This document shows positions 3,622 through 40,543 of a DNA stretch of 64,000 bases, one piece after another (within the stretch, counting starts at the first letter, position 1; each line of letters opens with the position of its first letter). Origin of the DNA: a virus. The translations under genes and the position numbers were made by a program. Location: positions 58,392 to 122,391 of the IMG/VR virus record IMGVR_UViG_3300030085_004825; one strand, 5' to 3'. Below the pieces are notes generated by a model that was given only the letters and a program-made list of their open reading frames with translations, searched no databases and was not told where the DNA came from.

Positions 3622-5820
3622 ATGTCTGAAATTATTATTTCTCCTGGAGTAGACGTAACAGAAAATGATCAAACTTTTAATTTTCAACAACCTGCTCAAG
3701 CTGATGTTGCTATTATAGGCCCTACAGTAAGGGGAAAAATTAATATTCCTACTATAGTTACTTCATATGAAGATTATATACAAAAATATGGTGATGATTT
3801 TTTAAGTGGGAGTAGTAATTATAACTATTTTACTTCTTTAGCAACGTATAACTTTTTTCAGAATTTAGGAGATGCACCTGGATCAGTCTTAATAACTCGT
3901 GTTGTAAGTGGTAGTACAGTAACAGATTGGACTCCTGCTACATCTTCTAGAATAGAAACTTCTTTTACAGAAATACAAGCTTCAGCAAGTGTTCCTTTTA
4001 CACCATTTTTTCCATCATCATCATTTTTTATTTCCCAAGGTGCTTCTTCTGATAATCTTACAGGAACTTTTTCAATAAATGGTATAACTTTAGTTATTAC
4101 AGGTAGTGCTCATAATTCTTCTTATAGTGGAAACTTTACTAATACTTCTACTTTAATATATGTCCCTTCAGGTTCAAATGTTGCTAATACGGTAATCTCA
4201 GCTTCAGAACATTTAGCTGCTAGTAGTTCTTTACCAGCTTATAGTTCTTCTTTAGGAAATATATCATCCTCAGCAGACACAAATAATTTATTATTAACAT
4301 ATATTGGACAAAACTCTGCAGGTATAGGAAATAACCAAGTATTTACTTCAGGAAGTACTGCTAGTGGTAACATTACATATACTTTTTCAGGTGGTGTAAA
4401 TACAGAAGCATTTGTGCTAGAAACTATATCTGAGGGAGAAATAATGAATAGTGAGGGTCCTACAGGACCAGATGGTACTTTATTAAGTGGGTCTGAAAAT
4501 AATTACAGATACCAAATAACATCTCCAAATGTAGAAGATGGGACTTTTAATTTACTTATTAGAAAAGGTAATGATACTACAACTTTTCCTTCTGTATTAC
4601 ACACAATAGGTCCTATTTCATTAGATCCTAATTCTTCAAATTATATTGAAAAAGTAATAGGAAACCAAATTCATACTTTAACCCAAGATAGTACAACAAG
4701 TGAGTATTTCATTCAAACCACAGGCAATTACCCTAACAGATACCCTACTATTAGAGTTAAACAAGTAAATGCTACTACTGTAGATTATTTTAATAATGAT
4801 GGAACTGTAAAATCTGAATATACAAGTTCAATGCCTCTTACTCAAAGTGGGGTATTTGGAGGAGCTTTAGGAAATAATATACCAACAAATGCTGCTGGTA
4901 ACTATTATGAAAATATTACTGATTCAAACATTCAAGGTCTTTCTCCTAGTAACTATTCTGAATCTATTTCTTTATTATCTAATAAAGATGCTTATAGATA
5001 TAACACTATAATCACTCCTGGATTAATAGCTGATCCTAATTTTTACCCTAATAGTAATATTATTGTTTCTCAATTAATATCTATGGTAGAAAATAGAGGA
5101 GATTGTATGGCTATAATAGATATTTCTAAATACAATGAAAACACTGGCCAGATAATAGCTAATGCTCAAACTAGAAATACTTCATATGCTGCTACTTATT
5201 GGCCTTGGGTGCAAACACCTCTTCCTAATAATCTTTCTACTTTAGTATGGGCTCCTACATCTACTTTTATCCCTGGAGTATATGCCTTTAATGACTCAAA
5301 TGGTTACCCTTGGCTTGCCCCTGCAGGCATAAATAGAGGAATTATTAGTAATGCTACTCAAACTGAAAAAGTATTAACTCAAGGTATTAGAGATACATTA
5401 TATCAAAATAGAATTAATCCTGTGACTACTTTTATAACTCCTCAAGGGAATTCTATTGTTGTATTTGGACAAAAAACTTTACAAAAACGTAATACTTCTT
5501 TAACACGTATTAATGTAAGACGTTTGTTAATTAATTTAAAAAATTACATATCTCGGGTAGCAAATGAATTTGTTTTTGAACAAAATACCCCTGAAACTAG
5601 AGAAGATTTTCTTTCTCAAATTAATCCTTATTTATCTCTTGTCCAACAACAAGAAGGTTTAACAGCTTTTGAAGTAATAATGGATGAAACAAACAATACC
5701 CCAGAAATTATAGATAACAATAAATTAGTAGGTCAAATTTACATTCAACCTACACGAACAGCTGAATTTATTTTATTAGATTTTAATATCTTACCAACAG
5801 GAGCAGAATTTCCTAGTTAA
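3622..5820 (+). CDS. Tail sheath protein, gp18-like (paralog 1)
   Basis: A 732-aa contractile sheath subunit. The N-terminus (ISPGVDVTENDQTF, then AIIGPTVRGKINIPTIVTS) is the typical sheath start that exchanges strands with neighbours. A Ser/Thr-rich surface insert occupies about residues 110-260. The C-terminal core has YAATYWPWV, PGVYAFND, APAGINRG, VVFGQKTLQ, RINVRRLLINLKNYI and the closing QIYIQPTRTAEFI, which form the inner sheath layer. A second complete sheath gene follows 47 nt downstream. A late-type motif precedes it. Confidence 0.9.
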   Translation: MSEIIISPGVDVTENDQTFNFQQPAQADVAIIGPTVRGKINIPTIVTSYEDYIQKYGDDFLSGSSNYNYFTSLATYNFFQNLGDAPGSVLITRVVSGSTVTDWTPATSSRIETSFTEIQASASVPFTPFFPSSSFFISQGASSDNLTGTFSINGITLVITGSAHNSSYSGNFTNTSTLIYVPSGSNVANTVISASEHLAASSSLPAYSSSLGNISSSADTNNLLLTYIGQNSAGIGNNQVFTSGSTASGNITYTFSGGVNTEAFVLETISEGEIMNSEGPTGPDGTLLSGSENNYRYQITSPNVEDGTFNLLIRKGNDTTTFPSVLHTIGPISLDPNSSNYIEKVIGNQIHTLTQDSTTSEYFIQTTGNYPNRYPTIRVKQVNATTVDYFNNDGTVKSEYTSSMPLTQSGVFGGALGNNIPTNAAGNYYENITDSNIQGLSPSNYSESISLLSNKDAYRYNTIITPGLIADPNFYPNSNIIVSQLISMVENRGDCMAIIDISKYNENTGQIIANAQTRNTSYAATYWPWVQTPLPNNLSTLVWAPTSTFIPGVYAFNDSNGYPWLAPAGINRGIISNATQTEKVLTQGIRDTLYQNRINPVTTFITPQGNSIVVFGQKTLQKRNTSLTRINVRRLLINLKNYISRVANEFVFEQNTPETREDFLSQINPYLSLVQQQEGLTAFEVIMDETNNTPEIIDNNKLVGQIYIQPTRTAEFILLDFNILPTGAEFPS

Positions 5821-5867: not shown

Positions 5868-7841
5868 ATGGCAAATTTCACACCCTCACCAGGAGTAACC
5901 CTTAATGAACTAGACCAGACGTTTCTTACTAGCCAACCTATCCAAGCAGGTGCAGCTATTATAGGCCCTACAGTAAAAGGACCTAATGAATTACCTACTT
6001 TAGTAACCTCTTATTCAGAATATCAAACTACATTTGGAGATATTTTTATTAGTGGTGGTAATTCTCACTCATATTTAACATCTATAGCAGCTTATAATTA
6101 TTTTAATTATGGTGGTGAATCACTTTTAGTTACTCGAGTAACAAGTGGTTCTTTTTCTAGTGCTACATCAAATGTCCCCTCAGGTGCAGAATCTGGTATA
6201 TTATCTACAAATGCAGATGCTTTATTATCTTCATTTACTAGCGTAAGTGCCTCAGCAGGTACATATACTAGTTTAGGAACCACAGGTAGTATATCAGGTA
6301 CAGGAGCAGTATTATCTGTTACTTTAGATACTACTTCTTCGATAAGTTCAGTTACTGTAACCTCAGGAGGATCAGGATATGCAATTGGAGAAACTTTATC
6401 AGTAACAGGAAGTTTAATTACAGGAGGAGTAACAGATTTAATATTTACTTTAAATGCTGGTGATATTGTTAACCAAAATGTATTTACTTTAGAAACAATA
6501 AGTGAAGGTGTTATTATGAACAATGGAACCCTAGAAACAGGAGGCACACTATCTTCAGGATCAAAAGATAATATAAGATGGGAAGTTACTCAAGTAAATA
6601 CTGGGTCTGGTAATTTTAATTTAATTGTAAGAAGGGGGGATGATAATACTACTAACAAAGTTATTCTTGAATCATATAATGGAATTAATTTAGATCCTGA
6701 ATCTCCAAGATTTATTTCTAAAATAATAGGAGACCAGAAATTAGCCTATAATGCTACAACTAACCAAATGGAGACAACAGGTAACTACCCTAACAGGTCC
6801 CGATTTGTTCGTGTAAAAAGTGTAAATTCTTTAACCCCCAATTATCTAAACTCCCTTGGAGAAATTTCAGATTCTTCTTTTACTAGTAAGTTACCTTTAG
6901 TAGGTAGTGGATCTTTTGCTAATGGTGTAGGTGATGTAAATACTACAATAAATTTATATGATGCTATAAACACTAATACTCAAGGATTAGCAGGTAGTGA
7001 TTATGATAACATGATAAACTTACATGGAAATCGTGAAGCTTACCAATTTAATCTTTTATTTACTCCTGGATTATTAAATGATACTCATCCAACCCAAATA
7101 ACAAACATTATTTCTAAAACTCAAGAAAGGGGAGATAATATGTTTGTTTTAGATTTAACAAAATATGACGGTAATTTAGCTGATGCTATAGGAGAAGCCC
7201 AAGGAAAAGATACTTCATATGCTGCTACTTATTGGCCATGGGTTCGTATAATTGACCCCACAACTGGAAAACATATATGGTCACCAGCTTCAACTTTAAT
7301 TCCTGGTGTATATGCATTTAATGATAAAGTAGCTGCCCCATGGTTTGCCCCAGCAGGTATAAACAGAGGAGGATTATCTAGTGTTCTACAAGCTAAATTT
7401 AAATTAACTCAAGGTAACAAAAATGACTTGTATGAAAATAACATTAACCCAATTGCTACATTCCCTAAACAAGGAGTAGTTGTATTTGGACAAAAAACAC
7501 TTCAAAAACAAGCATCCGCTTTAGATAGAGTTAATGTGCGACGTTTAATGATTGAATTAAAAAATTATATCCGTCAAATAGCAGACACAGTAGTATTTGA
7601 ACAAAATACTTTAGAAACTAGAGGATCTTTTCTTTCTAGAGTAAATCCATATTTAGATGGTATCCAACAAAAACAAGGACTACATGCTTATAAAGTAGTA
7701 ATGGATGAAACAAATAATGGCCCTGCTGTTATTGATCAAAACCAATTAGTAGGTCAAATTTACATTCAACCTACACGAACAGCTGAATTCATTTCTTTAG
7801 ATTTTATTTTATTACCAACAGGAGCAGAATTCCCAGCATAA
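5868..7841 (+). CDS. Tail sheath protein, gp18-like (paralog 2)
   Basis: A 657-aa paralog of the preceding sheath protein, complete at both ends. It shares the N-terminal SPGVTLNELDQTF and AAIIGPTVKGPNELPTLVTS and the full C-terminal core (YAATYWPWV, PGVYAFND, VVFGQKTLQ, NVRRLMIELKNYI, TRTAEFISLDF). The middle insert (about 105-210) differs from paralog 1, being Gly/Ser/Thr-rich. A 46-nt stretch at 7744-7789 is identical to 5723-5768. Both copies probably reach the virion, or one may be conditional; sequence alone cannot say. Confidence 0.9.
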   Translation: MANFTPSPGVTLNELDQTFLTSQPIQAGAAIIGPTVKGPNELPTLVTSYSEYQTTFGDIFISGGNSHSYLTSIAAYNYFNYGGESLLVTRVTSGSFSSATSNVPSGAESGILSTNADALLSSFTSVSASAGTYTSLGTTGSISGTGAVLSVTLDTTSSISSVTVTSGGSGYAIGETLSVTGSLITGGVTDLIFTLNAGDIVNQNVFTLETISEGVIMNNGTLETGGTLSSGSKDNIRWEVTQVNTGSGNFNLIVRRGDDNTTNKVILESYNGINLDPESPRFISKIIGDQKLAYNATTNQMETTGNYPNRSRFVRVKSVNSLTPNYLNSLGEISDSSFTSKLPLVGSGSFANGVGDVNTTINLYDAINTNTQGLAGSDYDNMINLHGNREAYQFNLLFTPGLLNDTHPTQITNIISKTQERGDNMFVLDLTKYDGNLADAIGEAQGKDTSYAATYWPWVRIIDPTTGKHIWSPASTLIPGVYAFNDKVAAPWFAPAGINRGGLSSVLQAKFKLTQGNKNDLYENNINPIATFPKQGVVVFGQKTLQKQASALDRVNVRRLMIELKNYIRQIADTVVFEQNTLETRGSFLSRVNPYLDGIQQKQGLHAYKVVMDETNNGPAVIDQNQLVGQIYIQPTRTAEFISLDFILLPTGAEFPA

Positions 7842-8474: not shown

Positions 8475-9683
8475 ATGCAAAATACATTAAATTTATTCTT
8501 TTTATTAGTTTATAATATTATATGGTCTCAATGTCCTTATTTAGGACCTGATCAAGTATTACCAACAAATACACAATTAACAACATTATTTGCTGATACA
8601 AGCAATTGTATTGAATATCCTAAAAAAATCATTGATTATAATGTATATGAAATACCATATACACAAATAGAAAATAATGGAATTGAAGTTTACGTTTGGA
8701 ACCACACAGATGCTATAAATATAGGCTTTGATTTTACTTTTTATGAAAACACATATTCAGAATTTTACATATACCGAAAAGGTAGAATTGGATTTTCCCA
8801 ACCAAATAATTCAGGGTTTGAAACTGATGATCCCATTCCTTGGGCTAATATGTACTCTCCTAAAAATTCTATTTTAATAACTGGACGTTATGGTGATACT
8901 CAAGATGGGGGTTCTTTTAAATATGAAACTCAAGGTAGTGCCCCATATAGAAAATGTATTATTTCTTACGATGTACCCTATTATACTAATCAATGGTTAT
9001 GTCCCGAAATATTTAAATTTCATATTATATTATATGAAACAACAAACATAATAGAGCATTTTATAGATTCTAAACCCTTTGAATGTTCAAATTTAGGTAG
9101 TATACAAGGAATACAAAATATTAATGGAACTATAGCAACCACAGTACCAGGTAGAAATGGTGAATTATTTGAGGCATATGAAGAAGCATGGAGATTTGCA
9201 CCACAAGAAATAAAATATTATCCTGAACTAGAATGGTATGAAGTAGGTAACCCTAATATATTAGAAACAGGTGAAGAAATAGAAGTAACACCAACAATAA
9301 ATGGCACTTATTATACATGTCATCCTAAATATGAAAATGGATATATTACACCTAACCTTGATACTATATTTATACAATTAACTCCACCTCATAATATTGT
9401 TTCACCTATTGAAGAAGAATTAACTATTGAAAGTTATTATATACCTAATGCTTTTACACCTAATGGAGATGAATATAATAATTCATGGGGGCCTGTTTTT
9501 TCACCTAGATTTGAAATAAAAAACTATCATTTAGAAATTTATAATAAATGGGGAAATAAAATTTGGGAATCATATAATCCTAATATAAAATGGAGTGGTA
9601 CTAATTATTTAGAAAATATTTATATTTGGAAAATAGATTTAAACGAAAAAAGTTTTTACGGGCATGTAACACTTATTAAATAG
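8475..9683 (+). CDS. Secreted protein with T9SS type B sorting domain (CHU_C / gliding motility-associated C-terminus)
   Basis: A 402-aa protein. The start at 8475 is preferred over an upstream in-frame start at 8415, which lies inside the terminator. Residues 1-20 (NTLNLFFLLVYNIIWSQ) form a signal peptide. The middle has a beta-rich module with YIYRKGRIGFSQ and KFHIILYETTNIIEHFI. The last ~85 residues match the T9SS type B C-terminal domain: YIPNAFTPNGDEYNN, then LEIYNKWGNKIWES, W-S-G-T, and a final GHVTLIK. In flavobacteria this domain directs outer-membrane export by T9SS. Between a terminator and tail genes, with its own host-type promoter, it looks like a moron. Whether it ends on the host surface or the virion is unknown. 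Confidence 0.82.
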   Translation: MQNTLNLFFLLVYNIIWSQCPYLGPDQVLPTNTQLTTLFADTSNCIEYPKKIIDYNVYEIPYTQIENNGIEVYVWNHTDAINIGFDFTFYENTYSEFYIYRKGRIGFSQPNNSGFETDDPIPWANMYSPKNSILITGRYGDTQDGGSFKYETQGSAPYRKCIISYDVPYYTNQWLCPEIFKFHIILYETTNIIEHFIDSKPFECSNLGSIQGIQNINGTIATTVPGRNGELFEAYEEAWRFAPQEIKYYPELEWYEVGNPNILETGEEIEVTPTINGTYYTCHPKYENGYITPNLDTIFIQLTPPHNIVSPIEEELTIESYYIPNAFTPNGDEYNNSWGPVFSPRFEIKNYHLEIYNKWGNKIWESYNPNIKWSGTNYLENIYIWKIDLNEKSFYGHVTLIK

Positions 9684-31221: not shown

Positions 31222-31249
31222 AAAAGGTGTACATTTGTATACCTTTTTT
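31222..31249 (+). terminator. Rho-independent terminator
   Basis: The stem AAAAGGTGTAC (31222-31232) pairs with GTATACCTTTT (31237-31247) across an ATTT loop, with one G-U pair, and runs into T. It separates the replication/RNR block from the envelope cassette. Confidence 0.75.
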
Positions 31250-31260
31250 ATATTTATACT
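31250..31260 (+). promoter_or_regulatory. Weak late-type motif ATATTTATACT
   Basis: It matches the late motif core but not the downstream AAAA. It sits just after the terminator and 30 nt before the first gene of the envelope cassette, so it is the best candidate promoter for that cassette. Confidence 0.35.
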
Positions 31261-31290
31261 CAACACACGTTTTATTTTAAATAGTTTTTT

Positions 31291-31560
31291 ATGAAAATTT
31301 ACAAATATATAAAAAGTAGAATTATGGCTTTTAAAGACATGTTTAAAGACAATAATGATGTAAATGAAAAAAACGTAATAGGATTTTTATCATTTGCAGT
31401 AATGGTATTATTTGCTCTTGCTGATTTAATAACAGGATATTTAGGTAAAGATTTAGTAGTTCAAGAATTTATTTATAATTCTTTTCTAGTAATTACTTTA
31501 GGATGTTTTGGGATAGCAGGAATTGAAAAAATATTTTCTAAAAAAGATAACGAAGAATAA
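31291..31560 (+). CDS. Two-helix membrane protein, holin-like candidate
   Basis: An 89-aa protein with two predicted membrane helices, about 32-50 (VIGFLSFAVMVLFALADLI) and about 62-82 (FIYNSFLVITLGCFGIAGI), and charged ends, the size and layout of a class II holin. An internal ATG at 31324 (MAFKDMF) is an alternative start. It opens the cassette that ends with an amidase, which supports a lysis role. No sequence motif proves holin function. Confidence 0.55.
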   Translation: MKIYKYIKSRIMAFKDMFKDNNDVNEKNVIGFLSFAVMVLFALADLITGYLGKDLVVQEFIYNSFLVITLGCFGIAGIEKIFSKKDNEE

Positions 31561-31562
31561 AT

Positions 31563-34361
31563 ATGAAAAAGTTTTTATTATTATTATTGTGTTTAACTAC
31601 ATTTTTTAGTTTTTCACAAGAAGTAGCACCAGTTACTTTTAGATTAGATTTAAATGAGGTTATAGATAATGTACCTAATTACGGAGAAGCTCAAGTATTT
31701 ATACAAACTAATGTTGCTAATTGGGTTGATATACCAATGGAAGATATAGGTGGAAATGGCATATATAGAAAAAATATTAATATAACCCACCCAGAAGATG
31801 AAAATATAGATGTATTTTATAGATTTAAAGTAACATCTTTTGGAACTAATGGTTTACCCTATACTTTATGGGAAGGAGGAGTAAATTCAGACCCAACCTG
31901 TCTTTTTGATCCTAGTACTCAAGGTTTAGCCGGGGGAGATATAAGGAAAGTAGTAGTACCACAAGAACTAATTGATAATGGTACCTATGTTAACCCAACT
32001 GGAGAATTTAAATTAACGCATTGTTTTAATGTATGTGGTAATGCATCATGCCCACCAGAACCTTGTATAAATGGTTTAACTTCAACTAATGCTTATCAAC
32101 AATGCATTAATGGAGGATCCCAAGCTCTTATAGTTTTTGAATGGCAAACTGAATGTGAAATACAATCTGTTGAATATACTAATGCTGAAGGAGTAGGCCC
32201 ATTTACATACCCAGTTAACCCTGATGCTTTAAATTTTGGAGTATATGCAGGAACACCGAATATGCCACCAAATTGGTCTGTAGAACACCAATTAACAGTT
32301 AATTTTGCTGATGGAACCCAATCTGCTCCTATTTTTTATACCCCACAACCATGCATCCCAGGTTGTACTGATCCTAATTCAGTATCATATAATCCATGGG
32401 CTAATCAAGATGATGGTACATGTTTAAATGCCGGTGGGGGAGAAAATTGTGACCCAGGAGATTATGAAATAACAATATCGGTAACTTTAGATAATTGGCC
32501 AGGAGAAACATCATGGACATTAGTGTCGTTGTCTGATGGAGGAATTCCTATACAAATGCCACAAGGAGAATATGATTATTCAGATGTAGGTCAAACATAT
32601 GATTATACAGTTTGTATTGATGGTCAAGGAGTTGAACTCATTATAAATGATTCATATGGTGATGGATTAGTAGGTGGTAATACTCCTGGAAATGTTGTTA
32701 TAACAGACTGTGATGGTAATATTTTATGGACTTTAACTGATGTTGCACCAAATCTTGATTTTGACTATGTAGCATATTCAGGACCTGTATTTGGAAATGC
32801 GTGCAGTGGAATAACACCTGTTCTAGGATGCACAAACCCAGCATATCAAGAGTATGACCCTACAGCAACAATAGATGATGGTAGTTGTGCAAATTTACAT
32901 GTATATGGATGTATAGATACTACGGCTTATAATTACAATCCTAATGCTACTATGCAAGAAATAATTCCTACTTGCGATTATGAGTTGTGGATTGGAGATG
33001 CCGCTGCTGATGGTTGGGGTAATTCATACATTGGTATAACCCAAGGAACAAACCAATGGACATTTACAATGGGGCCAGGTTCTTACAGTCAAACATTCCC
33101 TTTAACATTAGACACAGATAAACCTGTCGAAGTTTATTATTTTGAAATAGCGGCTCCACAACAACAAGCACAAGAAGTTGAATTTCAAACATGGCAAAAT
33201 TCATTTAAACTAACTAACGCAGATGGAGTAGTATTAATGCATGAAGGTTCTAATCCTTTTGCAAATAATGGACTAGGAGCTCTACAGCCATTTGAAGGTC
33301 CATTTTATGAAAAATATCAAGCAATACCTTTTTGTGGTGATTTATGTGTTCCTGTCATACTTGGATGTACTGATTCAACATCACTAAATTACAACCCAAA
33401 CGCAAACACAGATGATGGTTCTTGTATTCCAATTATATATGGTTGTACTAATGAATTAGCATTTAATTACAACCCTGATGCTACAGTAGATGATGGTAGT
33501 TGTATACCAACTATTTATGGATGCACCGACCCATCTTCTTGGAATTACAACCCAGATGCAAATGTTGATGATGGTTCATGTATATATTTTGGTTGTACTG
33601 ACTCTACAGCTTTAAATTATAATCCTGCTGCAAATGTAGATAATGGAACTTGTATATACCCAATATATGGCTGCACAGATCCTGAAGCATTTAATTACAA
33701 CCCTGAAGCAAATGTTGATGATGGTTCATGTATACCTGTAATTTATGGTTGTATGGATCCTACAATGTTTAATTTTAACCCTATAGCAAACACTGATAAT
33801 GGTTCATGTATACCTGTAATATTTGGTTGTACTGACTCTACAGCTTTAAATTATGACCCAATGGCTAATACAGATAATGGAACTTGTATATTACCACTTA
33901 CAGGGTGTACAGACCCAAATGCTTATAATTACGACCCAACAGCAAATGTACCAGATTCAACAGCATGTTTATATGATGCAGGTTGTATTGGGGGGCCTGG
34001 TGAACCTTATTGGTTAAATAATCCATGTTTTGCTTGGGTAATAGATGTTGATATTTATTGTTGTGAAGTAGAATGGGATGCTTCATGTCAATCAATGTAT
34101 AATTACTGTGTTGATGGTTGGCCTGTAGGAATAGATGAAATGGATATAAATGGAATTATAGTTTACCCAAACCCAACAGATAATATTTTAAACATTGAAA
34201 CTCATTTATCATTTAAATATGAATTAAGAGATGCAATGGGTAAATTAGTATTAACAGGAGAAGATAAACGTTTAGAATTAGGAAAATATGATGATGGAGT
34301 TTATTTTTTAACTATAATTCATAACGAGAAAAAATTTAATAAAAGAATCATAAAACAATGA
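31563..34361 (+). CDS. Large secreted protein with Cys-rich GCTD repeats and T9SS type A sorting domain
   Basis: A 932-aa protein. Residues 1-18 are a signal peptide ending FSFSQ. Near residues 260-800 are about eleven repeats of the form GCTDPxAxNYNPxANxDDGSC, whose Asp/Asn spacing suggests calcium-binding disulfide-stapled units. Two beta-rich modules (about 295-410 and 475-590) interrupt them. The last ~75 residues match the T9SS type A domain (Por_Secre_tail): IIVYPNPTDNILNIE, then LRDAMGKLVLTGE, and GVYFLTIIHNEKKFNKRIIKQ. It should be exported through the host T9SS and anchored or released at the surface. It starts 2 nt after the membrane protein and overlaps the barrel gene by 4 nt. Such a protein is unusual in a phage. 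Confidence 0.85.
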   Translation: MKKFLLLLLCLTTFFSFSQEVAPVTFRLDLNEVIDNVPNYGEAQVFIQTNVANWVDIPMEDIGGNGIYRKNINITHPEDENIDVFYRFKVTSFGTNGLPYTLWEGGVNSDPTCLFDPSTQGLAGGDIRKVVVPQELIDNGTYVNPTGEFKLTHCFNVCGNASCPPEPCINGLTSTNAYQQCINGGSQALIVFEWQTECEIQSVEYTNAEGVGPFTYPVNPDALNFGVYAGTPNMPPNWSVEHQLTVNFADGTQSAPIFYTPQPCIPGCTDPNSVSYNPWANQDDGTCLNAGGGENCDPGDYEITISVTLDNWPGETSWTLVSLSDGGIPIQMPQGEYDYSDVGQTYDYTVCIDGQGVELIINDSYGDGLVGGNTPGNVVITDCDGNILWTLTDVAPNLDFDYVAYSGPVFGNACSGITPVLGCTNPAYQEYDPTATIDDGSCANLHVYGCIDTTAYNYNPNATMQEIIPTCDYELWIGDAAADGWGNSYIGITQGTNQWTFTMGPGSYSQTFPLTLDTDKPVEVYYFEIAAPQQQAQEVEFQTWQNSFKLTNADGVVLMHEGSNPFANNGLGALQPFEGPFYEKYQAIPFCGDLCVPVILGCTDSTSLNYNPNANTDDGSCIPIIYGCTNELAFNYNPDATVDDGSCIPTIYGCTDPSSWNYNPDANVDDGSCIYFGCTDSTALNYNPAANVDNGTCIYPIYGCTDPEAFNYNPEANVDDGSCIPVIYGCMDPTMFNFNPIANTDNGSCIPVIFGCTDSTALNYDPMANTDNGTCILPLTGCTDPNAYNYDPTANVPDSTACLYDAGCIGGPGEPYWLNNPCFAWVIDVDIYCCEVEWDASCQSMYNYCVDGWPVGIDEMDINGIIVYPNPTDNILNIETHLSFKYELRDAMGKLVLTGEDKRLELGKYDDGVYFLTIIHNEKKFNKRIIKQ

Positions 34362-35419
34362 AAAAACTTTTAATTTTATTTCTATTATTACCTGTAATTA
34401 CATTTAGTCAAACAGAATCTAAATTTAAAAAAACAGTTAAAAAGATTTTTAAGTATTCTACTTTTTATGGTGCTGTTACTGGTGGTAATTCTATATCTGA
34501 TGTTAATGTTTATTCTGTAACAAATGGTTTAGAAACTTCAATTGTTAAAACCCCTTTTGATTATTCAATTGCATTAGGAGTTAGAAAAATAGCTAGATTT
34601 GGTTATGAAAATAGAGCTAATGTATTTTTTGATGGAACAGAAAAAACATATGGTGATGCTGCTACAATTGGTAAGATAAATGGATTTGAATATTTATTTG
34701 AAGCAGATTGGACAAGACAACAAGGTACATCATTTTTAAATCAAGACTATTTTTTAAGATATGTAGCAAAAAATTGGATTGCTAAAGCAGAATATTTAGA
34801 AGATGGATTTGCTGACATTAGATACTTTGAATCCTCAGAAAGATATAGACAAAAAATAGGAAATAAACTATCTTTTAATATAGGTGCAGTACAGCGTATA
34901 GCAGAACCTTATGGTTATAATCCATTAGATCAATGGTTATTATCAAATGGTAGTTTGCATTACACTGACTTAGCACTACAAGAAGGGTATTCTATTGAAT
35001 TTGATGGTAATGGAGGTGTAAATTATTTTAACCCTAATGGAGAATTAGTAGCAGAAAACACCCAAGTATGGGAAGCAGTAACTATACCAGAAGTATTAGC
35101 TGAATACACAGAAAGAGAAAGAAAAGCATTAAAATATCAATGGAATCATTCATTAGTAATAGGTTTTGATTTTTATCACTATACTAAAGATTTTTGGGTG
35201 CATTCATGGGGTAATGTAATGCCTTTACATTTAGAAACTAAAAGTGATTACTCATACCATAAATTTAATGGTGGGCAATGGATAGATTACTCAGGTGGTT
35301 TAATATTTGGATATAAAATTACTAAAAATTTAGGAGTATTTTTAGAAGGTAAATATAACAAATATTGGAATAGAAAATGGCACGATTTTAGTGTTGGAGT
35401 AAATTATATAATTTTATAA
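34358..35419 (+). CDS. Outer-membrane beta-barrel protein
   Basis: A 353-aa protein with a signal peptide (KKLLILFLLLPVITFSQ) and a series of amphipathic strands rich in Tyr, Phe and Trp. It ends in strands FGYKITKNLGVFLEG and WHDFSVGVNYIIL, a typical barrel C-terminus. The first gene overlap (ATGA) couples it to the T9SS protein. It may alter the host outer membrane during infection, for example by masking receptors or aiding lysis or export. That role is inference. Confidence 0.65.
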   Translation: MKKLLILFLLLPVITFSQTESKFKKTVKKIFKYSTFYGAVTGGNSISDVNVYSVTNGLETSIVKTPFDYSIALGVRKIARFGYENRANVFFDGTEKTYGDAATIGKINGFEYLFEADWTRQQGTSFLNQDYFLRYVAKNWIAKAEYLEDGFADIRYFESSERYRQKIGNKLSFNIGAVQRIAEPYGYNPLDQWLLSNGSLHYTDLALQEGYSIEFDGNGGVNYFNPNGELVAENTQVWEAVTIPEVLAEYTERERKALKYQWNHSLVIGFDFYHYTKDFWVHSWGNVMPLHLETKSDYSYHKFNGGQWIDYSGGLIFGYKITKNLGVFLEGKYNKYWNRKWHDFSVGVNYIIL

Positions 35420-35420
35420 A

Positions 35421-35705
35421 ATGGCAAAAGAATTAAACGAAGACACAGGTTTTAAAGTAAGTATAAAAACTTTAATAGGTATTGCATTTGCAATAGCAAC
35501 AGTAGTAGCAATGTGGTATGCGTTACAAGCTGATATACAAGAAGCAAAAGAATTACCCAAACCCCCTGAACCAGAAGTAACTAGAATGGAATTTGACATG
35601 AAAGATCAAATAGTTAGACAAACTATTATGACAACTCAAGAAGATGTCAAAGAACTTAAAGAAGATATGGATCGCATAGAAGAAAAAATTGATAACCTAA
35701 AGTAA
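35421..35705 (+). CDS. Single-pass membrane protein with coiled coil
   Basis: A 94-aa protein. One membrane helix spans about 13-35 (KTLIGIAFAIATVVAMWYAL). It is followed by a Pro-rich linker (LPKPPEPEV) and a charged coiled coil to the end. The layout resembles an inner-membrane spanin subunit, and the neighbours (holin-like, barrel, amidase) favour a lysis role. I see no separate outer-membrane spanin lipoprotein with certainty. Confidence 0.5.
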   Translation: MAKELNEDTGFKVSIKTLIGIAFAIATVVAMWYALQADIQEAKELPKPPEPEVTRMEFDMKDQIVRQTIMTTQEDVKELKEDMDRIEEKIDNLK

Positions 35706-35711
35706 ATTATT

Positions 35712-36041
35712 ATGAAAAAGGTATTTTTGCTATTATTTAGCATATTTTTTACAATAAGTTGTTATACTCAGATTACTATTAAACATTTTAATGCTTCATG
35801 GAATGCTACAAATAATGTTACATGGCTTAAAAGCTTAACTGATTGTAGTGTAAAATACTATGACATAACTAAATCTCCTGAACTACAGAAAAAATATAAA
35901 GTAGTTGTTGTTCCAACTATTATAGTATTTCAAGATGGAGAAGAAATAGAGAGATATCAAGCAGATATCTCTTTTAAAATGCCCGCTACAAAAGATGAAG
36001 TACAAGAAGCTATTGATGAAGCTATAATGGGTGGATTTTAA
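35712..36041 (+). CDS. Exported thioredoxin-fold protein lacking CxxC
   Basis: A 109-aa protein. Residues 1-19 are a signal peptide (KKVFLLLFSIFFTISCYTQ); the Cys could be a lipidation site but the lipobox is poor. The rest follows thioredoxin: KHFNASWN, LKSLTDCSVKYYDITKSPEL, then VVVPTIIVFQDGEEIERYQ with the cis-Pro loop. The redox CxxC is replaced by NATNN-like sequence, so it cannot be a normal oxidoreductase. It may act as a binding scaffold in the periplasm. Confidence 0.6.
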   Translation: MKKVFLLLFSIFFTISCYTQITIKHFNASWNATNNVTWLKSLTDCSVKYYDITKSPELQKKYKVVVVPTIIVFQDGEEIERYQADISFKMPATKDEVQEAIDEAIMGGF

Positions 36042-36059
36042 AATTTATAAATATAAAAT

Positions 36060-36977
36060 ATGTTACTAAAAAAAGGATCAAAAGGTAAAGAAGTAAAAGA
36101 ACTTCAAAAAGCTCTAGAAATAGGAGCAGATGGTATATTTGGCTCTGGAACAGAATCAGCAGTTAAAAAATTCCAAAAAGATAATGGATTAATAGCTGAT
36201 GGAATAGTAGGCCCTGCTACCTGGGAAGCTATAGGAATAGATACAGATACAGATACTACAGCTGAAGAAACAGAGTATACAACTAAAGACGGTTTAATAA
36301 TTGAACGTCAATATTTAGATAAAAATGAGTATGTAAGAGATTATGGTAAAATAGAACCACTAGGTTTTTTCCTTCACCATACTGCTGGTTGGGATAACCC
36401 ATTCGCATGTGTAAATAGTTGGAATAAAGATAAAAGAGGTAGAGTTGCTACTCAATATGTTATAGGAGGAACTAATGTAAAAGGTAAAGAAGCTAAGTAT
36501 GATGGTGTAGTAGTAGAATGTTTCCCAAATAATTATCTAGGATGGCACTTAGGAAAAGTAGGAAATTTTAAAATATCAAAATTATCAGGTGGCGTAGAAC
36601 TTAATAATTTTGGTTACTTAACTAAAAAAGGAGATAAATATTATACTTATGTTAATACAGAAGTTAAACCTGAATTTGTTTGTGACTTAGGATATAAATT
36701 TAGAGGACACCAATACTGGCACGCATACTCAGATAAACAAATTGAATCACTTCGATTATTAATTTTACACTTAAAAGATATTTATCCAAAAATGGATTTA
36801 GAAAATGGACTTCCAAAATTATTAAAAGAAGGAGTTCATCCAAAAGATGCGTTTGAATTTAATTTAGATGCTTATAATGCAAAACAATTTGGTTTATGGA
36901 CACACACAAATGTTCGTAAAGATAAATTTGATTGCTTCCCTCAACATGAATTAGTTGAGATGCTTAAAGGTTTGTAA
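36060..36977 (+). CDS. Endolysin: N-acetylmuramoyl-L-alanine amidase with peptidoglycan-binding domain
   Basis: A 305-aa cell wall hydrolase. Residues 1-60 are a PG_binding_1 unit (KGSKGKEVKELQKAL, DGIFGSGTESAVKKFQ, DGIVGPATWEAI). Residues about 95-250 are an Amidase_2-type domain with zinc-type His106/His107 in FLHHTAGW, a YVIGG strand and FRGHQYWHAYS near the end. It has no signal peptide, so release needs a holin, for which 31291-31560 is the candidate. A strong terminator follows. Confidence 0.85.
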   Translation: MLLKKGSKGKEVKELQKALEIGADGIFGSGTESAVKKFQKDNGLIADGIVGPATWEAIGIDTDTDTTAEETEYTTKDGLIIERQYLDKNEYVRDYGKIEPLGFFLHHTAGWDNPFACVNSWNKDKRGRVATQYVIGGTNVKGKEAKYDGVVVECFPNNYLGWHLGKVGNFKISKLSGGVELNNFGYLTKKGDKYYTYVNTEVKPEFVCDLGYKFRGHQYWHAYSDKQIESLRLLILHLKDIYPKMDLENGLPKLLKEGVHPKDAFEFNLDAYNAKQFGLWTHTNVRKDKFDCFPQHELVEMLKGL

Positions 36978-37000
36978 AATTACATTTTTTAAAAATACTT

Positions 37001-37027
37001 GGAGTCCCAAAAGGGACTCCTTATTTT
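37001..37027 (+). terminator. Rho-independent terminator after endolysin
   Basis: A perfect 8-bp stem GGAGTCCC / GGGACTCC with AAAA loop (37001-37020), followed by TTATTTT. It ends the envelope cassette. Confidence 0.85.
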
Positions 37028-37034
37028 ACATGCT

Positions 37035-38081
37035 ATGAAACGATTTTTTCCAATATTAATTTTAATAGCAGCTTTAAGTTTAGCAACTGTAGCTGCTTAC
37101 TATAGTGTTTTTGGTATTAGTAAACTATTTTCTTCTCAAGCTAGTGCTGTGATATTAATGGCTGCTATACTTGAGGCCTCTAAACTTATTACTGCTTCTT
37201 ATTTAGAAAGATTTTGGCAAACTATTCATTGGGTAAGAAAAACTTATTTAATTTCTGCTTTAATAGCATTAATGGCTATAACTTCACTTGGAATTTATGG
37301 GTTTTTAGTTTCTGCTTATCAAGAAACTGCATATAAAATGCAAGCAATAGATAAACAAGTTGAAGTAAAAGCTAAAAAACGTGATAGATACCAACAACAA
37401 ATAAAAGATATATCTAAAGAACAAAAAGATATAAACACACAAATAATTGAATTAAGTGAAAGTCTAGGTAATAATGTTATTCAATATACTAATAGTGAAG
37501 GACAACTTATAACCACACAATCCTCAGCAACACGTAAAATTATCCAACAACAATTAGATGTTCAAACATCTAGAAGAGATAGCTTAACTATTAAACAAGA
37601 TATTTTAAATGATAGTATTACAAAATTTGATTTAGATATACTAGATTTAGAAACTAATTCAGAAGTTGCAGCAGAAATTGGACCCTTAAAATATGTTGCT
37701 AGTATTACAGGAAAAGATACTGATCAAGTAGTGAATTGGTTTATATTAGTTTTTATATTTGTTTTTGATCCTTTAGCTGTTATGTTACTTATTTCTGCAA
37801 ATAAAATATTCTATGAAAATTCTAAAAAGAATATTTATGGAGAAAAAAAAACTAAAGTTTTAAAAGAAGAAAAAGTAGAGGTAAAACAGGAGGAGAGTAA
37901 AGCCGAGCGGGTTAAAGCCCCAACTCCCCCCTCTACTATTTCTTCTGAAAAGCAAAAACTTCAAGATGAAATAGCTAAAATTCAAAGATCTGGAGCTTCA
38001 AGTAAAAGAGCAGGACAAGCTATAGAAAATTTACAATCTCAAATAAAAAAAATAGATAATGATAATACTAAAACTTATTAA
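37035..38081 (+). CDS. Four-pass membrane protein with periplasmic or cytosolic coiled coil
   Basis: A 348-aa protein. The ATG at 37035 is preferred over a TTG at 36999, which lies before the terminator stem. Membrane helices are at about 4-25, 34-52, 65-90 and 235-260. Between helices 3 and 4 is a long coiled coil (about 95-220). The C-terminal ~80 residues are charged and cytosolic-looking. The segment ILMAAILEASKLITASYLERFW and helix 3 (ALMAITSLGIYGFLVSAYQ) look strongly constrained. The function is unknown; superinfection exclusion or membrane reorganisation is possible. Confidence 0.6.
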   Translation: MKRFFPILILIAALSLATVAAYYSVFGISKLFSSQASAVILMAAILEASKLITASYLERFWQTIHWVRKTYLISALIALMAITSLGIYGFLVSAYQETAYKMQAIDKQVEVKAKKRDRYQQQIKDISKEQKDINTQIIELSESLGNNVIQYTNSEGQLITTQSSATRKIIQQQLDVQTSRRDSLTIKQDILNDSITKFDLDILDLETNSEVAAEIGPLKYVASITGKDTDQVVNWFILVFIFVFDPLAVMLLISANKIFYENSKKNIYGEKKTKVLKEEKVEVKQEESKAERVKAPTPPSTISSEKQKLQDEIAKIQRSGASSKRAGQAIENLQSQIKKIDNDNTKTY

Positions 38082-39326: not shown

Positions 39327-39683
39327 ATGAGTAAAGGTAACATTAAAGTAAGATTTCCTAATGAATCTTTTTATGATGAAATAAACGTAAAAAATGTTAT
39401 AGATTTTAAAATATCTAAAGAATTTGATGATGAAATTTTTGGTTATTTAAACTCTTCCTTTGTAGCTATTAAAAAAGAAGATTATAAAAAACTTAAAACA
39501 AAAGAAATGAATTTAGATAAAAAAATAGAATTTGAAAAATTCCGTGAAGAATGGAAAAAGAATTGGTATGATTACTATCGTTTATTAGATATAGATTTTG
39601 AAGCATTTATGAGAATGAAAGGATTAACAATAGAAGAATATAAACACTTAAATAACGAAGAATTATGGAAAGGCATGTTGTAG
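39327..39683 (+). CDS. Hypothetical protein upstream of queC
   Basis: A 118-aa charged protein, with a beta-like first half (GNIKVRFPNESFYDEINVK) and a helical Trp/Tyr-rich second half (REEWKKNWYDYYRLLDIDF). AAAAGTT directly precedes its ATG. It overlaps queC by 19 nt, so the two are coupled. No family recognised. Confidence 0.5.
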   Translation: MSKGNIKVRFPNESFYDEINVKNVIDFKISKEFDDEIFGYLNSSFVAIKKEDYKKLKTKEMNLDKKIEFEKFREEWKKNWYDYYRLLDIDFEAFMRMKGLTIEEYKHLNNEELWKGML

Positions 39684-40543
39684 TTTCCCTATCTGGAGGA
39701 ATGGACTCCAGTACATTGTTGTTACGTTGTCTAAAAGAATATGACACGGTAACAGCTATTTCATTTGATTATGGACAAAAACATCGAGTTGAATTAGAAC
39801 GCGCTCAATCATTGGTAGATTATCTTAACAGAGAACAAGATTATCAATTATCATATATTGAACCTAAATTTAGTAATATTAAATATCGTCAAATTAAATT
39901 AGATGGTTTAGTTGATTTACTTGATTCTGCATTAGTAGATGGTGGAGATGATGTACCTGAAGGTCATTATGCTGAAGATAATATGAAAGCAACAGTTGTT
40001 CCAAATAGAAACAAAATATTTGCCTCTATTACACAAGCAGTAGCACTGTCTAGAGCAAACCAAACAGGCGAAAATTGTGATATTGCACTTGGTATTCATG
40101 CAGGTGATCATGCTATTTATCCTGATTGTAGACAAGAATTTAGAGATGCAGATGATGCAGCATTTAGAATAGGTAATTGGGATGCTGATAAAGTAGGTTA
40201 TTTTACACCCTATCTTGAAGGTGATAAATTTACTATTCTACAAGATGGAGAAAATTTATGTGATTATTTAGGTCTTGATTTTAATGAAGTTTATAAACGT
40301 ACAAATACAAGTTATAAACCAATCCCAATTAAACAATTTCACCCTATGATAGATTCTATAAAATGGTACTCAGACTATAAATCAGCTTCATCTGTAGAAA
40401 GAGTAGAAGCATTTATTAAATTAGGAAGACCTGACCCTGTAGAATATGCAGATGAAACAGGCCCCGTAGAGTGGGAAACAGCAAGAATATATGTTGAACA
40501 AGTACTCTCAGAGTATGAAAAAGAACAATTTAACGTAAAATAA
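39665..40543 (+). CDS. queC: QueC-like 7-cyano-7-deazaguanine (preQ0) synthase
   Basis: A 292-aa PP-loop ATPase that would convert 7-carboxy-7-deazaguanine to preQ0. The ATP loop is VVSLSGGMDSSTLLL (residues 7-21), followed by SFDYGQKHRVELERA and the family-type VPNRNKIFASI. The usual C-terminal zinc site (one Cys then a CxxCxxC) is absent: the matching stretch reads NTSYKP and later WYSDYKSASSVERVEAF, with the DP of GRPDPVEY retained. It is longer than most QueC. Operon position before queD and queE supports the role. Confidence 0.78.
   Translation: MERHVVVSLSGGMDSSTLLLRCLKEYDTVTAISFDYGQKHRVELERAQSLVDYLNREQDYQLSYIEPKFSNIKYRQIKLDGLVDLLDSALVDGGDDVPEGHYAEDNMKATVVPNRNKIFASITQAVALSRANQTGENCDIALGIHAGDHAIYPDCRQEFRDADDAAFRIGNWDADKVGYFTPYLEGDKFTILQDGENLCDYLGLDFNEVYKRTNTSYKPIPIKQFHPMIDSIKWYSDYKSASSVERVEAFIKLGRPDPVEYADETGPVEWETARIYVEQVLSEYEKEQFNVK

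Follow-up and report, generated by a model that had tools for sequence, protein, structure and literature searches.

A conserved, lysis-linked four-gene module with a type IX secretion cargo in marine phages of Bacteroidota

The locus lies on the plus strand of a 64-kb window (the whole stretch of DNA that was analysed, 64,000 nucleotides), which is the final 64 kb of the 122,391-base viral record IMGVR_UViG_3300030085_004825. Tail sheath, tail tube and UvsX-like proteins mark the phage as a myovirus, and its tail sheath is closest to that of Flavobacterium phage immuto (44% identity). Six genes were found exactly where a first-pass annotation, made from the letters alone, had placed them (Table 1). 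They encode a holin-like protein (HOL), a large protein with a type IX secretion system (T9SS) type A sorting domain (T9A), a predicted outer-membrane barrel (BAR), a short coiled-coil membrane protein (CC), a thioredoxin-fold protein (TRX) and an endolysin (AMI). The three signal peptides of that annotation were found by sequence in T9A, BAR and TRX.

Table 1. Features of the lysis-linked locus (window coordinates).
Feature	Position	Strand	Description and evidence
Hairpin, terminator 5' of operon	31222..31247	+	-12.2 kcal/mol, z -4.7 (200 shuffles)
Late-promoter-like element	31243..31268	+	core ATATTTATA; TATTTATA from 31251; 40 nt 5' of first gene
HOL	31291..31560	+	89 aa, two-TM holin-like protein; frequent neighbour of the module, not universal
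T9A	31563..34361	+	932 aa T9SS type A cargo; sequence, profiles, model
T9A signal peptide	31563..31616	+	MKKFLLLLLCLTTFFSFS, before QE; sequence inspection, hydropathy screen only
T9A Cys-rich repeat stalk	33345..33965	+	GCTDPxAxNYNPxANxDDGSC units; weak repeat matches in marine phage records
T9A constant pre-CTD Cys domain	33960..34115	+	AWVIDVDxYCCxxxWDxxCxxxYxYC; most invariant part of T9A alignment
T9A T9SS type A sorting domain	34161..34358	+	YPNPTDN ... RIIKQ; TIGR04183, PF18962, fold match 8glk_D
BAR	34358..35419	+	353 aa outer-membrane beta-barrel, signal peptide; AlphaFold2 barrel; 4-nt overlap with T9A
CC	35421..35705	+	94 aa, N-terminal TM helix and putative periplasmic coiled coil; alignment, 62% mean column identity
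TRX	35712..36041	+	109 aa secreted thioredoxin fold; profile against PDB, best E 8.6e-10
AMI	36060..36977	+	endolysin, exchangeable neighbour; PG_binding_1 and Amidase_2
Hairpin, terminator 3' of operon	37001..37020	+	-16.1 kcal/mol, z -4.3; minus strand reads as terminator too
TM360	37035..38081	+	membrane protein flanking lysis locus; 38% identical to immuto gp185, E 2e-62

The six genes had also been described as lying between two terminators. Both boundary hairpins fold far better than their shuffles; however, a consensus terminator scan alone found 4 terminators versus 3.3 in shuffles, which is not above chance. No RNA elements were found at the Rfam gathering threshold. The start of TM360 was set at ATG 37035 in preference to TTG 36999, which just precedes the second hairpin.

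A late-promoter-like element is located between the first hairpin and HOL. The motif TATTTATA has 43 plus-strand copies in the record, 24 of them intergenic, and intergenic DNA makes up 4.2% of the record. The intergenic copies lie mostly 11-40 nt 5' of start codons, those of both sheath genes and of the tail tube gene included, and none is found between 13602 and 31251, which is the region of DNA-metabolism genes. When a motif matrix was built from 20 other sites, with the module's own site left out, this site ranked 20 of about 122,000 positions and was the best among those outside the training set. In related loci, a strong site was found 34 nt 5' of T9A in L083 and a moderate one 55 nt 5' of HOL in L019, and other relatives (e.g., L086 and L087) show no strong site at that place. 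Judged by its position, the element would be a late promoter, and the motif makes late expression of the module likely.

T9A is organised as a signal peptide, a variable beta-sandwich head, a Cys-rich repeat stalk, a constant Cys domain and the sorting domain. The type A domain proposed in the first-pass annotation was borne out by TIGR04183 (35.9 bits, cut-off 23) and also by PF18962 (34.7 bits, cut-off 27). In addition, the last 75 residues of the T9A model superpose on 8glk_D, the cargo domain of NucA from the solved structure of the F. johnsoniae T9SS, over 75 columns with an rmsd of 1.6 and a TM of 0.82 on the target. On the basis of the profiles and the model, T9A appears to be exported to the surface by the T9SS of the host. 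The model contains strings of Ig/fibronectin-like sandwiches with a low pTM (0.35), and its structural matches include surface glycan-binding proteins; the sequence search against PDB gave no match. PF18962 is matched by 25 of the 26 T9A members, and 18 of 21 viral contigs checked have a sorting domain above the cut-off, each with a single such site. Some heads in the relatives contain MAM (E 4e-21) or CBM (carbohydrate-binding) domains. The GCTDPxAxNYNPxAxxDDGSC repeats are also present in large phage proteins of L037, L048, L098, L101, L104, L121 and L123, which have no sorting domain and some of which begin like tail proteins.

The 353-residue protein had been described as a barrel, and the AlphaFold2 model of BAR is indeed a beta-barrel of moderate confidence (mean pLDDT 75, pTM 0.66). 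The BAR alignment contains 64 members with 58% mean column identity and has no meaningful Pfam, NCBIfam, PHROG or PDB family. PorV and PorP/SprF were considered as identities and rejected, as no such Pfam or NCBIfam match was obtained among the 64 members. Foldseek against PDB retrieved generic barrels only, and the sole close structural relative is a viral protein, A0A516LKJ4 (TM 0.73, 25% identity).

The alignment of CC shows a hydrophobic helix close to its N terminus and a heptad-like pattern at its C terminus, with a putative periplasmic part of about 58 residues; the protein has no meaningful match in the curated families of Pfam, NCBIfam and PHROG. The thioredoxin fold assigned to TRX by the first reading agrees with the profile search, and the CXXC active site is absent, the site reading FNAxWNxxN throughout the alignment. 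The TRX of the window passes a lipobox screen (TISC), as do 6 of 105 TRX proteins, and with so few a conserved lipoprotein is ruled out. The distances between families correlate at 0.60 for BAR and T9A and 0.52 for BAR and TRX, and more weakly for CC (0.31-0.43); the values obtained with the neighbouring M15 endolysin are no lower, and we therefore take none of them as a sign of protein contact.

Relatives of the locus were collected from IMG/VR, where BAR retrieved 110 relatives, of which 80 were kept, and T9A retrieved 45. Near BAR, the first 65 representatives contain T9A in all 65, TRX in 64 and CC in 62. Used as a second, independent bait, CC recovered at least 600 stretches, at least 574 of them confirmed to encode it, yet BAR, CC and TRX have no match in 50,697 phage genome records beyond one at chance level. 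Among the matches listed, all four genes are present in 36 of 41 CC-bait loci with a full flank; of the remaining five, at least three do contain CC, which the gene picking had missed. Clustering of the combined loci from both baits at 90% barrel identity left 104 non-redundant loci among the matches listed, and 95 of these have the complete module on one strand. Only three gene orders were found among them, all cyclic rotations of T9A-BAR-CC-TRX (56, 27 and 12 loci), and the median gap between T9A and BAR is -4 nt, the typical 4-nt overlap. T9A is seemingly missing in L204 despite a good flank. The conserved unit is thus these four genes, a set that is far beyond chance and that is found in at least two phage backbones, and its carriers are marine phages of Bacteroidota.

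A search of 84,980 species genomes gave five matches, all of them in MAG contigs and one in an archaeal MAG. A bacterial origin of the module was rejected, because these five contigs may be misbinned phage. The module barrel in the MAG named as archaeal (Ca. Nitrosopelagicus; L205, CALBOT010000064.1) most likely belongs to a misbinned phage contig.

In the window, the module is flanked by HOL and AMI. AMI, already called an endolysin by the first reading, matches PF01471 (PG_binding_1) with 59 bits (cut-off 23) and PF01510 (Amidase_2) with 27.2 bits (cut-off 26). HOL has no match to a Pfam or PHROG holin family and is 51% identical to immuto gp192, which adjoins the immuto endolysin and holin, a position that is suggestive of a holin. 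The order of all six genes, as first proposed, is not conserved. The endolysins beside the module are of unrelated types (Amidase_2, peptidase M15 of phrog_894, the phrog_3000/33083 type and possibly DUF5675, of unknown function), that is, at least three types, or four with DUF5675, and some loci have no endolysin nearby; the holins are of phrog_3427 or of the HOL type. Since the endolysin and HOL are exchangeable, a six-gene unit was rejected.

The linkage to lysis genes as such is real and extends over many phages. Lysis enzymes occur at 0.19 per kb within 1 kb of the module versus 0.006 per kb at 4-10 kb (about 30 times denser), and holins at 0.28 versus 0.003 per kb; as the lysis families were recognised among neighbour clusters, distant types that were not recognised are missed, and the contrast between near and far within the same loci is still large. 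A recognised lysis gene lies within 4 kb in 50 of the 64 loci with at least 4 kb of flank on both sides, so that in relatives the T9SS and barrel genes are mostly not separated from lysis genes, and none was recognised in the other 14. The existence of such a module, conserved, linked to lysis and with a T9SS cargo among its four genes, is in our view very likely.

Comparison of close relatives shows exchange of the T9A head. L026 and L027 share 98% identity over 500 nt on the upstream side and over 1 kb on the downstream side, and their BAR, CC and TRX are 99, 100 and 95% identical, respectively; the last 150 residues of T9A share 94-96% identity and most of the head about 30-40%. The same pattern, with the head exchanged and the anchor kept, was found in L028 and L033. 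Between the window and L084, BAR is 97% and T9A 77% identical, and the T9A lengths differ by 131 residues. Wholesale replacement of the head on a kept anchor is in keeping with a surface protein that binds a variable partner outside the cell.

The gene set, the density of lysis genes, the late motif and the exchange of the head with a constant anchor lead us to infer that the module is a late, lysis-linked surface-display system with a variable head. A coordinated system at the Bacteroidota envelope had been suggested from the first reading, and the T9SS cargo, the barrel, the late motif and the lysis linkage uphold this part, but not the six-gene cassette with its endolysin. The additional idea that the system breaches the envelope is one candidate function, against which stand the exchange of the head with its anchor kept and a separate spanin-like pair in the same phage, described below.

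As a whole mechanism we tentatively favour, at rather less than even likelihood, a surface display that causes adsorption interference on the infected cell. T9A would exit by Sec and then be carried to the surface by the type IX system of the host. Its Cys domain and sorting domain would serve as its anchor, to be received or held by BAR in the outer membrane. TRX, with no CXXC redox chemistry, and CC may secure the display complex on the periplasmic side or accompany the Cys-rich cargo. Binding of the exchangeable head to the host surface or receptor would then keep competing phages, as well as the phage's own progeny at lysis, from adsorbing to the doomed cell or to its remains. Both the contacts between T9A, BAR, CC and TRX and the adsorption interference itself are steps that we infer, and the exchange of the T9A head is the reason for the preference. 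Nevertheless, simple exclusion has no obvious need for an inner-membrane coiled coil and a thioredoxin fold, or for adjacency to a holin and an endolysin, and late expression is late for classical exclusion; furthermore, the structural models behind this reading are moderately confident for BAR and of low pTM for T9A. If it is true, these phages repaint the host by means of an export machine specific to Bacteroidota and then burst it.

The density of lysis enzymes and holins close to the module is the best neighbourhood evidence for another reading, which we consider unlikely, in which CC, TRX and BAR would be a non-lipoprotein spanin, with T9A as its surface part, and would carry out an outer-membrane lysis step. 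In the cultured relative immuto, homologues of HOL and TM360 enclose, in place of the module, genes for an endolysin and a holin together with an overlapping spanin-like pair, and proteins with a lipobox are few near the module (10 of 1,636 ORFs). The module resembles two-component and unimolecular spanins (PMC6139136) in that its genes lie in the lysis locus and include a putative inner-membrane coiled-coil protein, and an outer-membrane protein has been suggested as a possible o-spanin in spanin-less phages (Kongari et al., PMC6139136). Unlike those spanins, the module has a barrel (BAR), a TRX that in most cases is no lipoprotein and, in addition, an exported surface protein; the adjacency to holin and endolysin typical of a two-component spanin is found, and the lipobox of an o-spanin is not a general feature of the module. 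If the outer-membrane lysis step were true, it could account for the opening of the outer membrane by some phages that lack spanins.

However, the same phage has an overlapping spanin-like pair (G000:C1:42468-43180, record 42.5-43.2 kb) just 5' of the terminase gene and about 47 kb upstream of the module. It is homologous to immuto gp187/gp186, and its members have 119 residues (N-terminal helix and coiled coil) and 142 residues (signal peptide, coiled coil and C-terminal helix); in proteins of the gp186 type, a signal peptide and a C-terminal helix are present and a lipobox is absent. The pair is a candidate spanin. It was found in three or four of 22 other module contigs, G001, G005 and G024 among them, and was not detected in the remainder, and its presence weakens the module as a strict spanin substitute. 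Furthermore, a role in lysis gives no reason for an obligatory T9SS cargo whose head can be exchanged, CC is a short protein, and the 14 full-flank loci mentioned above have no recognised lysis gene. In cultured flavophages, single proteins near the endolysin, elemo gp32 (L211:30613-31158) and Calle gp18 (L212:24687-25286), begin with a membrane helix and end in a beta segment that resembles an outer-membrane anchor, and are possible unusual unimolecular spanins.

A sensor would account for all the parts, with one in each envelope layer, a variable outer head and conserved inner parts, and it agrees with late expression and adjacency to holins. The module would sense superinfecting virions, kin or host density outside the cell and control the holin, as a Bacteroidota counterpart of T4 lysis inhibition, a reading that we regard as improbable. 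It is equally doubtful that T9A, BAR, CC and TRX together span the envelope without a break from surface to inner membrane, and that the phage thereby reads the outside with the exported, exchangeable head and times its lysis; no counterpart of such a trans-envelope lysis-decision system is known. Against a sensor, no signalling feature was found in the module, and several holin types lie beside it.

The MAM and CBM domains of some heads, the adhesin-like sandwiches of the T9A model and the occurrence of its Cys-rich repeats in large non-cargo proteins, some with a tail-like start, would suit a surface adhesin by which infected cells, debris or progeny stick to particles or glycans, and which would serve an ecological or nutrient purpose and not exclusion. 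The placement in the lysis locus and the need for BAR, CC and TRX are unexplained by such a role, to which we give little credence.

Least probable is that BAR, CC and TRX serve as dedicated aids to the export or anchoring of T9A, whatever the role of its head: the pairing of T9A with BAR is obligatory, and in F. johnsoniae type B cargo relies on cognate PorP/SprF barrels whose genes are often linked to that of the surface protein (PMC12618676), but the sorting domain here is of type A, for which cargo uses PorV, and BAR, with neither a PorV nor a PorP match and generic barrels only in Foldseek, belongs to an unrelated family. Such a helper role overlaps the adsorption-interference mechanism as a sub-step.

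Among known phage systems, Lom and the Lc/NmpC-type porins are phage-encoded barrels near lysis genes for which receptor change or exclusion has been proposed; they are single genes and are not known to have T9SS cargo, thioredoxin or coiled-coil partners. A phage-encoded T9SS type A cargo has been reported in Cryophage (PMC7468147), and there too the cargo varies between close variants. According to the available part of that report, however, the cargo consists of enzymes or a PA14 protein in one phage, and neither a barrel, coiled-coil and thioredoxin set nor a linkage to lysis is described. T9SS-tagged proteins of Bacteroidetes phages are also known from the crAss-BACON gut phages (PMC6949934); in the accessible text these are BACON repeat proteins beside head genes, and no such module is described. 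Phage T9SS cargo was earlier a matter of isolated cases, whereas the conserved lysis-locus system described here always includes one as an obligatory component. No description of the four-gene module was found in the literature searched, a scope outside which most subscription journals fall. The module could be a variant of surface exclusion if adsorption interference is confirmed.

Several other features were observed. Across the whole record, the motif TAATATTTATAATAAA is found before structural genes (in the window, for example, at 168, 3594, 5847, 7858, 11144, 13602, 42255, 59161 and 62730), and its core TATTTATA is the reverse complement of TATAAATA of T4. Two neighbouring tail-sheath-like genes (3622-5820 and 5868-7841) are alike, and the first matches phrog_23. 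Directly 3' of the tail tube gene, a second T9SS cargo, of type B and with a signal peptide, is encoded at 8475-9683 (ORF from GTG 8415); its C terminus matches CHU_C with 39.3 bits (cut-off 27) and TIGR04131 with 34.7 bits, or 35.3 with its neighbours (cut-off 35). Type B T9SS-like C termini were also found in further phage proteins, at L053:8391-9623 (minus strand), L054:11704-12942 (minus strand) and L133:18008-19897. Finally, the gene at 39665-40543 encodes a QueC-like protein, an ATP-dependent queuosine-precursor synthase by sequence, which suggests 7-deazaguanine modification of the DNA; immuto encodes DpdA and QueF.
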